From NCBI RefSeq assembly GCF_022690685.1, contig NZ_JALCYY010000011.1:1-64000 (forward strand): DNA of 64,000 nt, written 5' to 3'. The DNA is from Anaeromyxobacter terrae (GTDB lineage Bacteria > Myxococcota > Myxococcia > Myxococcales > Anaeromyxobacteraceae). Positions 32,853 to 36,759 of the stretch are shown here, piece after piece (within the stretch, counting starts at the first letter, position 1; each line of letters starts with the position of its first letter). The position numbers and the translations under genes were made by a program. The notes beneath the pieces were generated by a model, which was given only the letters and a program-made list of their open reading frames with translations, was not told the DNA's origin and ran no database searches.

Positions 32853-33554
32853 TCACCCTCCCCCCGCCCGCCACAGCGCCCAGACCGCGGTCCACCCCAT
32901 CGCGAGCAGCACGACGAACGCCGTTCCCGACGCGACGCTCACGCGAGACATGCCGCGCCGCGATCCGATGGCCCAGGCGACCCCGACCGCCTGCAGGCCG
33001 TTCGCGAGGTGGTACGCCGTCCCGAGCACGCCGAGCACGTACACGACGAGTGTCGGCAGGTGGGACCGCACCTGGTGCGCGAGGTGCTCGAACGGCTCGG
33101 GCCCGCCCGCGAGGAGCCGCGGCTGGATGAGCGCGAGCCACAGGTGCGCCCCGAGGAAGAGGAGGAGCCCCAGCGCGGAGAGCCGGTGCAGCACGTGGCG
33201 CACGCTCACGAGCCGAACCGCGTGCCTCGGCACGCGCGTCCTCGGGAGCCGCGCGAGGCCCCACACCGAGTGCAGTACGAGCGGCACGAGCACGACAGCG
33301 AGCGTCACCGCCTGGGCGGCGGGGCTCGGGTGCTCGGTGACCGCGCGCTCCCACGCCGCCCGCCCGCGCAGCGCGGCGAGGTTGTCCCAGAGGTGGTTCA
33401 CCGTCCAGACGCCGACCGGGAGGAGCCCGAGGAGCGACGCGAGCTTCGAGCCCAGGAACGAGCCCACGGCGGTCCCCCCGCGCGCCTGCCGCGCGTCGGT
33501 ACCGGACCGCTCGCCGGCGCCGAGCTGCCTCTCCACCGAGATCGTGCGAGCCAT
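32853..33554 (-). CDS. Orphan succinate dehydrogenase/fumarate reductase-type cytochrome b
   Basis: A 233-residue five-helix membrane protein of the Sdh/Frd cytochrome b family. Candidate haem His residues lie in TVNHLWDN, VLHSVWGL, RHVLHRLSA, FLGAHLWLA and TAYHLANGL, enough for a di-haem protein. In this family the subunit anchors the flavoprotein and iron-sulfur subunits and exchanges electrons with quinone, but neither partner is encoded here. The ATG at 33554 sits about 12 bases from the -10 element of an ECF-type promoter, so the mRNA is probably leaderless or nearly so. The N-terminal 28 residues are polar. Confidence 0.82.
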   Translation of the reverse strand: MARTISVERQLGAGERSGTDARQARGGTAVGSFLGSKLASLLGLLPVGVWTVNHLWDNLAALRGRAAWERAVTEHPSPAAQAVTLAVVLVPLVLHSVWGLARLPRTRVPRHAVRLVSVRHVLHRLSALGLLLFLGAHLWLALIQPRLLAGGPEPFEHLAHQVRSHLPTLVVYVLGVLGTAYHLANGLQAVGVAWAIGSRRGMSRVSVASGTAFVVLLAMGWTAVWALWRAGGG

Positions 33555-33558
33555 GCGG

Positions 33559-33590
33559 TCTACACGCGCGACGGGCCCGCGAGGTTACGG
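33559..33590 (-). promoter_or_regulatory. ECF41-type promoter of the cytochrome b gene
   Basis: Minus-strand CCGTAACCT (33590-33582) and CGTG (33566-33563), separated by 15 bases, match the other two promoters of this set base for base at both elements and also share TCG at 33571-33569. The predicted transcription start is 2-5 bases before the ATG. Confidence 0.6.
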
Positions 33591-33681
33591 CCACTTGCGC
33601 GAAAGCGCGTCCGGCATCGACCTCGACCGGCACCCGCTCCCACCTCGGGACCGGCGCGCGGACGGAGCTCGCGCCGCCACT

Positions 33682-33713
33682 CCGTAACCTCCGCGCCCCC
33701 TCGCCCGTGATGA
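33682..33713 (+). promoter_or_regulatory. ECF41-type promoter of the epimerase gene
   Basis: Plus-strand CCGTAACCT (33682-33690) and CGTG (33706-33709), separated by 15 bases, with a shared TCG at 33701-33703. The leader to the ATG at 33730 includes an AAGGAGG ribosome site. Confidence 0.6.
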
Positions 33714-33729
33714 GAGCCAAGGAGGAGCG

Positions 33730-34680
33730 ATGAAGATCTTCGTCACGGGTTCCACGGGAGTCATCGGCCGGCGCGTGGTGCCGGCGCTGCTCGCGGCCGG
33801 CCACGAGGTCACCGCGGTCGCGCGCGCACCGGAGGCGAGGGCGCGCCTCGTGCGCATGGGCGTGAACGCCATCGGGCTCGACCTCTTCGACCCCGGCGCC
33901 GTCCGGCGCGCGGTCGCGGGGCACGAGGTCGTGGTGAACCTCGCGACGCACATCCCGTCGCCGGGGCGGATGCTCCTGCCGTTCGCGTGGCGCGAGAACG
34001 ATCGCCTGCGCCGCGAGGCCTCGGCGAACCTCTGCGAGGCGGCGCTCGCGGGCGGCGCCTCGAGGTTCGTCCAGGAGTCGTTCGCGCCCATCTACGAGAG
34101 CGCAGGCGACGCCTGGGTGGCCGAGCGGTCTCGCATCCGCCCGGTCCGCTACAACCGCTCGGTCCTCGATGCGGAGCGCGCCGCCGCCCGCTTCGCGAGC
34201 CTCGGGGGCGCCGGCGTCGTGCTCCGGTTCGCCGGGTTCTACGGCTCGGACGCGTCTCACCTCCGGCCGCTCGTCGCCGCGGCACGGCGGGGCTTCGCCG
34301 CCCTGCCCGGCGCCGGCGACGCCTTCATCTCGTCGGTTTCCCACGACGACGCGGCGTCGGCGGTCGTGGCGGCGCTCCGGGTTCCTCCGGGCGTCTACAA
34401 CGTCGCCGACGACGAGCCCGTCCGCCGGCGGGAGTACTTCGACCTCCTCGCCGCCGCGCTGGGGGTCCCGCCGCCGCGCCTGCCTCCGCCGTGGGCGAGG
34501 CACCTCTTCGGCTCGCTGGGCGAGCTCCTGGGGCGCTCGGTCAGGATCTCCAACTGGAAGCTGCGCGAGACGGCGGGCTGGGCGCCGCGCTACCCGAGCG
34601 TGCGCGAGGGCTGGCCGGCGACGATCGCGGCGCTCAGGGACGAGGCAGCGGCGCCCCCGGAGCTTCAGGCAGCGCCGTGA
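33730..34680 (+). CDS. NAD-dependent epimerase/dehydratase family protein
   Basis: A 316-residue extended SDR protein. The N-terminal nucleotide-binding motif is MKIFVTGSTGVIGRRVV (GxxGxxG), and the later segment SFAPIYE matches the Tyr-containing catalytic region loosely; the usual YxxxK is not evident (nearest RYNRSVLDAERA), so activity may be non-standard. AAGGAGGAGCG precedes the ATG. Its last 47 bases overlap, tail to tail, the end of the ECF sigma factor gene. Epimerases are among the typical genetic partners of ECF41 sigma factors, and a matching promoter lies upstream. Confidence 0.88.
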   Translation: MKIFVTGSTGVIGRRVVPALLAAGHEVTAVARAPEARARLVRMGVNAIGLDLFDPGAVRRAVAGHEVVVNLATHIPSPGRMLLPFAWRENDRLRREASANLCEAALAGGASRFVQESFAPIYESAGDAWVAERSRIRPVRYNRSVLDAERAAARFASLGGAGVVLRFAGFYGSDASHLRPLVAAARRGFAALPGAGDAFISSVSHDDAASAVVAALRVPPGVYNVADDEPVRRREYFDLLAAALGVPPPRLPPPWARHLFGSLGELLGRSVRISNWKLRETAGWAPRYPSVREGWPATIAALRDEAAAPPELQAAP

Positions 34681-35605
34681 GCTTGTGCGGCGCGGCGATG
34701 ACGTCGATGCGCGCGATGCGGCCCTCCGCGTCGAGGTCGAGGCGAAGCACGGTGCGGGGCGCGACGCGCGGCTCGGGGCTCTCGAGGTCGACCCTGAGCG
34801 CGGGGAGCCCGTTGAGGCGCAGCCAGGCGGCGCGCCCCTCCCCGCGTCCGCGGGCGATGCCCACGAAGAACCGCGCGACGTTGCTCGCGCCCTCGAGCAC
34901 CCGCGGCGCGGCGAAGTACTTCCCGCCGCCGTCGGTGACCGCGCGAGCGTTCGAGGCGAGGAGCGCCTCGGCCGAGGCCACGTCGCCCGCCAGGATGGCG
35001 CGGATGAACCCCTCGAGCGCCTCGCGCGTGCGCGCCTCCAGCGCGGGGGAGGCGGGGAGCCGCGAAGCGTCGTAGCCCTCCATGGCGCGGCGGGCGCGCA
35101 GGTGCGCGACCTTCACAGCGCCCTCGGTCGTGGAGAGCACCGCCGCCGTCTCGCGCACCGTGTGGCCGAGCACGTCGCGCAGGAGGAGCACCGCGCGCTG
35201 GAGCGGCGTGAGCCGCTCGAGCGCGACGAGGAACGCGTAGGAGGCGGACTCGGCCGTGTCGTAGCGCGCGTCCGGCGTCGGCTCGAGGTCGGGCTCGTCC
35301 GTGGAGGCCGGCGAGGGCAACCACTGCCCGGTGTACCCGCGGACGCGGCGGCGGCGCAGGAGATCGATCGCCAGCCGGACCGCGACGCGCGCGAGCCAGG
35401 GGCGGAGCGGCTCGCCCGAGCGATCGGGCCGCGCGGTGAGCGCGCGGGCGAACGTCTCCTGCACGAGGTCATCGGCGTCCGCCGCGACGCCGGTCATGCG
35501 GTAGCAGATCCCCCACACCGCCCGCCGGTGATCGTCGAGCGCCTGCCCGAGCGCACGGTTTCTGGGTTCGAGGGAGCGCGCCTTCGCAGCCATGGTCGTC
35601 GTCAT
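34634..35605 (-). CDS. ECF41-type RNA polymerase sigma factor with SnoaL-like C-terminal domain
   Basis: 323 residues from the ATG at 35605; a second ATG (35593, MAAKARSLEP) is possible. Region 2 spans about 24-90 (DDLVQETFARAL) and region 4 about 125-175 (LTPLQRAVLLLRDVLGHTVRET-like, with EGAVKVAHLRARRAM). The fused C-terminal SnoaL-like domain carries the ECF41 signatures: linker WLPSP (95-99), DGGGK (225-229) and a C-terminal APHKL (305-309; usual form NPDKL). In this group the fused domain, not an anti-sigma factor, controls activity. A promoter like those of its neighbours lies directly upstream, so it is probably autoregulated. Confidence 0.9.
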   Translation of the reverse strand: MTTTMAAKARSLEPRNRALGQALDDHRRAVWGICYRMTGVAADADDLVQETFARALTARPDRSGEPLRPWLARVAVRLAIDLLRRRRVRGYTGQWLPSPASTDEPDLEPTPDARYDTAESASYAFLVALERLTPLQRAVLLLRDVLGHTVRETAAVLSTTEGAVKVAHLRARRAMEGYDASRLPASPALEARTREALEGFIRAILAGDVASAEALLASNARAVTDGGGKYFAAPRVLEGASNVARFFVGIARGRGEGRAAWLRLNGLPALRVDLESPEPRVAPRTVLRLDLDAEGRIARIDVIAAPHKLTALPEAPGAPLPRP

Positions 35606-35611
35606 GGGCCG

Positions 35612-35643
35612 TGATCACGGCCGACGCTGGCAGAAGGTAACGG
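35612..35643 (-). promoter_or_regulatory. ECF41-type promoter of the sigma factor gene itself
   Basis: Minus-strand CCGTTACCT (35643-35635) and CGTG (35619-35616), separated by 15 bases, with TCG at 35624-35622. Only one base of the nine-base upstream element (A to T) differs from the other two sites. The predicted start lies about 4 bases before the ATG at 35605, implying a leaderless mRNA or use of the ATG at 35593. Confidence 0.6.
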
Positions 35644-35721: not shown

Positions 35722-36644
35722 TCAGGGGGCAGAGCCCTCGACCGCCGGCGCGTGCGCGCGCAGGAAGCGCGTCACCCGCGCCCGCGCCTCGGAGCGGTGC
35801 GTGAAGATGCTCACGTGCTCGCCGCCCTCGATGGCGAGGAGCTCCGCGCCCGGGATCCGGGCCGCCATCGCCTGCCCCTGCGCGAACGGCGCGGCGCTGT
35901 CGCTCGTCCCGTGAACGACGAGCGTCGGCACCGCGATGCGCTCGAGCGGGAAGGAGAGATCGCCGCGCGTCGTGGCGATGTCGTTCCCCGTCCCGGGAAG
36001 CCGGAGCGGCATCCGGTCCATCGTGCTGAGCTGCAGCGCGAGGAGGAGCGGCCCGACCTCCGATCGCCGACGGTGCGCGCGCGCAGCGCCGCGTCGGGGA
36101 TCGAGCGGCGCGCCGCGCGCTCCGGATCGCGCTCCACCTTCCGGCGCATCGCCGCGACGAGCGGACGGCAGCGTGCGGCGACCTTCATGAGCTGCCACGC
36201 GAGCGGCAGCCGCACGTCGATCCGGCTGCACACGGACGAGATGACGACGAGGCCCCAGCAGCGCTCGCGGTGGCTGAGCGCGAACTGGAGCGCCGAGGGG
36301 CCCCCGCCGGAGATGGCCATGACCGCCGCCTCGCGGACGCCGAGCGCGTCGAGCACGTCTCGATAAAGGTCCGCCTGCTCCGCCGGCGTCCGGCCCAGGG
36401 CGAGCGACGTGCCGAGGTAGCCGGGGCGGGAGAGCGCGATGTAGCGGAACCCCGGGCCCCCGACCGTCTCCGCGAGGAGCAGGCTCTGGTCGTAGCCGCC
36501 CATCGCGCCGTGGAGCGCGAGCACCGCCGGGCCCTCCCCGAGGACGGCGCACTCGACGGGACCGCGCCGTGTGCTCACGGTGAACGGGCGCGCCTCGTCA
36601 CCGAAGGCGGCGGTGCGCGGAGCGGGTGCAGGGATCGGTCGCAT
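35722..36644 (-). pseudogene. Alpha/beta hydrolase, frameshifted
   Basis: The first part runs from the ATG at 36644 (GGAGGAG ribosome site) and shows an alpha/beta-hydrolase N-half: VLALHGAMGGYDQSLLLAE, SRPGYLGTS and nucleophile elbow VMAISGGGPSALQFALSH. Near 36061-36090 the frame changes by one base (a CGCGCGCGC run is the likely slip site). The rest, from EVGPLLLALQLSTMDRM, is in the second frame, with VPTLVVHGTSDSAAPF (Asp) and EGGEHVSIF (His), ending at 35722. The whole would be about 307 residues with an intact triad. It could be a recent pseudogene or a sequencing error. Confidence 0.75.
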
Positions 36645-36759
36645 GGTCTCCTCCGGGTCGCGAGGCCGTCTGGGTACCGGAGCCGGGCGGCGGAGTCTTG
36701 CAGGAACGCGACACGGGGGCGAGGCGGACCGCTGCGCCCCCGGGGCGGGCGGGCCGGCT

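Follow-up and report, generated by a model that had tools for sequence, protein, structure and literature searches.

The window, the whole stretch of 64,000 nt that was analyzed, contains an ECF41-type sigma factor gene, an NAD-dependent epimerase gene and an orphan gene for an SdhC-like membrane protein, each preceded by a copy of the same bipartite motif (Table 1). The sigma factor matches Pfam Sigma70_r2 and Sigma70_r4_2 and lacks sigma3, as ECF41 proteins do. Its best match in the PDB is M. tuberculosis SigJ (5xe7, E = 7e-28), aligned over residues 27-313 and thereby including the C-terminal SnoaL-like extension that is a feature of ECF41. The SigJ-type NCBIfam models also align along the full length of the protein, with scores below their cut-offs, and the match to Pfam SnoaL_2 is weak (E = 0.04; 0.0011 in a relative). 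The extension carries DGGGK, and the linker reads WLPSP where ECF41 has WLPEP; the clade of this sigma factor mostly has WLPSP, with WLPEP in locus L101. The recognition helix of sigma4 reads AVKVAHLRAR. The gene context is likewise that of the ECF41 group, with an epimerase gene adjacent and no anti-sigma gene among the neighbors. The domains, the SigJ match and the SnoaL-like extension thus support the ECF41 identity proposed in an earlier, sequence-only reading of this DNA. Upstream of the sigma promoter, an alpha/beta-hydrolase gene (35725-36660, minus strand) is split over two frames near 36060-36070, which may be a frameshift or an assembly error.

Table 1. Genes and predicted promoters at the ECF41 locus (window coordinates)
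Feature	Position	Strand	Support and remarks
Orphan SdhC-like (cytochrome b558 family) membrane protein gene, 233 aa	32853..33554	-	TIGR02046 4.5e-14, below cut-off; Sdh_cyt above cut-off
Predicted SdhC-like promoter, CCGTAACCT-N15-CGTG	33563..33590	-	-35 GTAACC 33588-33583; -10 CGTG 33566-33563; kept in A. soli; gene absent in G006
Predicted epimerase promoter, CCGTAACCT-N15-CGTG	33682..33709	+	-35 GTAACC 33684-33689; -10 CGTG 33706-33709; kept in A. soli and G006
NAD-dependent epimerase / extended SDR gene, 316 aa	33730..34680	+	Pfam Epimerase 4.5e-18; convergent with sigma gene
ECF41-type sigma factor gene, 323 aa	34634..35605	-	Pfam; PDB 5xe7; SigJ-type NCBIfam models
Predicted sigma-gene promoter, CCGTTACCT-N15-CGTG	35616..35643	-	-35 GTTACC 35641-35636; -10 CGTG 35619-35616; kept in A. 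soli and G006

Profile searches identify the epimerase as an extended short-chain dehydrogenase. Its frame and that of the sigma gene share 47 nt at their 3' ends (34634-34680), which would make each transcript partly antisense to the other. The nearest family of the SdhC-like protein is b558, and its four His residues, which we take to be haem ligands, occupy conserved alignment positions. Neither sdhA nor sdhB, with which an SdhC would be encoded, was found among the neighbors of its gene; a separate SdhC, with SdhA next after it, lies on contig C73 of the same genome. Relatives of the SdhC-like protein, mostly single-copy, occur in 89 other Myxococcota genomes (42-52% identity in L065, L066, L070 and L075), and no SdhA was seen in the 1.5 kb adjoining L065, L066 and L075. 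We suggest that the orphan protein belongs to a stand-alone cytochrome b family. In the 18 Myxococcaceae loci checked, the promoter motif was absent upstream of the SdhC-like gene. As a guess, the epimerase and the cytochrome may have a joint role that is redox or quinone-linked.

A pattern scan of the window recovered the three CCGTWACCT-N15-CGTG sites with the coordinates and strands claimed for them in the sequence-only reading. CCGTWACCT alone was found in these three places only, and the TCG at motif positions 20-22 is identical across all three sites, both as had been noted. At least three matches occurred in none of 100 dinucleotide shuffles, compared with three in the real window. Random scatter of matches over the genome (142 contigs, 5.65 Mb) was not seen: the full pattern matched three times, always at this locus, and the reversed-pattern control matched once in an exact search. 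The core GTWACCT-N15-CGTG gave five genomic matches, namely the three window sites and two elsewhere; of these two, one falls within a reading frame and is unchanged in A. soli, and the other has no obvious promoter context. A search for a wider regulon with two mismatches yielded 255 matches versus 136 for the reversed control and added no member; the one-mismatch sites inspected (on C60 and C121) were in predicted frames or had no CGTG, and were not counted as regulon members.

The gap between CGTG and the start codon is 20 nt for the epimerase gene and contains a ribosome-binding site. For the SdhC-like (33554-33566) and sigma (35605-35619) genes, the ATG lies 8 and 10 nt past CGTG, respectively, and leaderless or near-leaderless mRNAs are therefore predicted. 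At 35607-35622, the -10 element of the sigma promoter lies within a perfect palindrome of 16 nt, GGCCGTGATCACGGCC. This palindrome is equally perfect in the related genome G006; in the A. soli version, GGGCGTGATCGCCC, both arms are altered and still largely pair. A second regulator may use the palindrome as its operator.

Conservation of the two elements in relatives had been named as a check, and the core motif was found at five of the five expected places: at all three in A. soli SG29 and at both remaining places in G006, which is without the SdhC-like gene. In the upstream alignments, both boxes, together with the CG that precedes CGTG, stand out as conserved islands amid diverged DNA. The conserved core is CGTWACCT-N15-CGTG plus this spacer CG, and the first C of the motif varies in the sister species. 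A close sigma homologue and the motif are both missing in the six other Anaeromyxobacter genomes, and other ECF41 genes in the genus have the canonical promoter form. Judged by its sequence, A. soli has a putative fourth, distant target with the variant promoter. The predicted site, TGTAACCTTCAGCCCCTGTCGTTCGTGG, is upstream of a second epimerase gene on a different contig (L087, G005:C56:122685), whose product is 36-37% identical to the first epimerase and which has no close ECF41 gene nearby.

Sigma homologues at E ≤ 1e-40 were detected in 63 of 195 Myxococcota genomes. The uncharacterized Myxococcaceae ECF41-type sigma factors (L039-L064, L091-L097) have the sigma clade and a GTAACC-n16-CGTG promoter in common with the window, whereas their target is an amine-oxidase-family FAD protein encoded in the sigma operon. 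In loci of this type with enough upstream sequence, GTAACCTT...CGTG stands directly before the gene of the FAD protein, which is followed by the sigma gene; in the close homologues, GTAACCTTT-...-CGTGG lies ahead of the FAD-oxidoreductase/sigma operon. The FAD protein had no match in nine Anaeromyxobacter genomes, in a search run without a positive control. Because other families combine the same sigma clade and variant with a different target, the predicted promoter variant appears to be a property of the sigma clade, and the target genes differ, the target usual for the clade being other than those of the window.

Promoter bases were compared with sigma residues using a pattern in which bases 3 and 6 of the -35 element and the final -10 base could be any nucleotide, and 55 loci had a placeable promoter. 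Among several pattern matches at one locus, the match preceding the COE or sigma gene was taken, and over a dozen ECF41 loci without a site were excluded from the count. The 56th locus is the genome's own second ECF41-type gene (L030/L088, G000:C112:12187-13071), which has a relaxed candidate site before itself, GTTGCG-n16-CGTC, found after the fact. This second sigma factor has R-M in its helix and possibly represents a third promoter specificity.

Two adjacent positions of the sigma4 recognition helix agree with the -35 bases throughout. Arg at the first goes with A or G at base 6 and Lys with C (56/56 ECF41 loci); at the second, Gln or Lys goes with C at base 3, and Val, Thr or Met with A or T (again 56/56). 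L142-L144 and the plasmid loci of Actinomycetota, Pseudomonadota and Cyanobacteriota were read only once the rule had been fixed, and these loci also agree, leaving aside the RK class, which was added from the later loci; it fits base 6, and its second-position Lys joins Gln as a putative reader of C. The agreement argues that the promoter is tied to this sigma factor, and it suggests a simple recognition code for the ECF41 -35 element with few independent changes beneath it. On a tree from which the helix columns had been omitted, about four changes of the K/C pair and two of the V pair are seen, residue and base together each time.

Alternatively, the motif and the sigma factor may belong together, with the residue-base agreement inherited from a common ancestor instead of reflecting a recognition code. 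A single clade (100/100 support) holds most of the variant loci, the two to four independent changes are too few to reach significance, and several tree branches are long. We regard this reading as unlikely, though a serious contender, because the helix positions recombine within that clade and each base tracks its own residue: KQ goes with GTCACC, RV with GTAACG, RQ with GTCACG and KT with GTAACC (KT and KV together, GTWACC).

G occupies the last -10 position in 20 clade loci, against C or T in all remaining loci. Solved ECF structures show the base at this position flipped into a pocket that loop L3 forms (PMC6372665, PMC6411747). M. tuberculosis SigL likewise tolerates G as the flipped master base of its -10 element (PMC6372665); SigL is not an ECF41 protein, and no clear counterpart of its Asp60 was identified in the comparison with the window clade. 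A Pro before W/Y-Leu in sigma2 L3 was ruled out as the sole cause of CGTG, since CGTG occurs with Gly in L142 and CGTC with Pro in L163, and no single L3 residue matching the C-to-G switch was found across the ECF41 loci. On balance, we lean slightly towards the view that the two adjacent sigma4 residues constitute a separable two-letter code for -35 bases 3 and 6, and that in one Myxococcota clade the flipped -10 base also went from C to G, with sigma factor, promoter and targets rewired together more than once.

As an overall explanation, the ECF41-type sigma factor very probably directs RNA polymerase to the GTWACC-n16-CGTG promoters of its own, the epimerase and the SdhC-like genes. The self-controlled three-gene regulon proposed in the sequence-only reading is borne out at the level of sequence, in that the genome has three sites only, each directly before a start, and the sites are conserved in relatives. 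By analogy, it is most likely that the SnoaL-like extension, in place of an anti-sigma protein, would restrain the sigma factor until a signal acts. The active holoenzyme would start transcription at the sigma gene and both neighbors, and activation would lead to positive feedback and to co-induction of the epimerase and SdhC-like genes. The helix change from R-Q to K-V would go with C at base 6 and A or T at base 3, and sigma2 would take G, not C, as the last -10 base. The promoter would differ from the canonical GTCACR-n16-CGTC because of these two changes.

It is very improbable that another ECF sigma factor of the same genome uses the three sites as its promoters, with the ECF41 gene just one of its targets. 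At least a dozen ECF-like matches were obtained in this genome, including the second ECF41-type protein on C112. However, the exact sites are confined to the ECF41 sigma locus, the same motif occurs with this sigma clade in other families before a different target gene, the helix changes of this sigma factor follow the motif changes, and the second ECF41-type protein has the distinct site of its own that was found afterwards. Least credible is a role of the sites as operators for a conventional regulator, which would suit the palindrome over the sigma-promoter -10, but this palindrome is missing from the other two window sites, and the shared motif is asymmetric, with a fixed 16-bp gap, ECF-like boxes and a start distance as in ECF41 promoters.

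ECF41 is among the most widespread ECF groups, and its promoter has so far been treated as a single consensus. The clade with both boxes and the matching helix changed offers a direct test of how ECF sigma factors change specificity, and in its loci one sigma type is seen with its target genes exchanged. The clade would also supply new sigma-promoter pairs, expected to be free of cross-talk with the canonical ones, and would let targets be predicted from two residues.

The mapped promoters of Ecf41Bli and Ecf41Rsp contain TGTCACA with CGTC or TGTT (Wecke et al. 2012, PMC3426412), and the ECF41 consensus, TGTCACA-n16-CGTC, was described before the sigma gene and neighboring COE genes from 285 sequences (PMC3426412). 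The 16-base spacing that had been claimed between GTWACC and CGTG is supported by this comparison, as the spacer and the GTNAC/CGTN register equal those of the proven ECF41 promoter (PMC3426412). The window sigma factor resembles Ecf41Bli and Ecf41Rsp in having a C-terminal extension, no adjoining anti-sigma gene and a next-door target, which is a COE gene there and the epimerase gene here. Control of activity by the C-terminal extension has been reported for other ECF41 members (PMC3426412, PMC8999054). In contrast to the single-transcript regulons of the ECF41 sigma factors studied (PMC3426412), the window has three separate predicted promoters and an additional SdhC-like target. The tail-to-tail order of its sigma and epimerase genes corresponds to an arrangement found in 9 of 373 loci by Wecke et al. 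2012 (PMC3426412). Another ECF41 member, M. tuberculosis SigJ (PDB 5xe7), is the best match among solved structures along the entire protein, SnoaL-like domain included, whereas its recognition helix has A-R-Q where the window sigma factor has V-K-V. The -35 element is GTWACC in the window and GTCACA in Ecf41Bli and Ecf41Rsp, and the -10 element is CGTG compared with CGTC or TGTT. The window promoters depart from the ECF41 consensus in three bases, -35 bases 3 and 6 (GTNACN) and the last -10 base. The variant may have been described previously; on the sequence comparison presented here, GTWACC-n16-CGTG is a predicted clade-wide variant of the canonical ECF41 promoter with both boxes altered.
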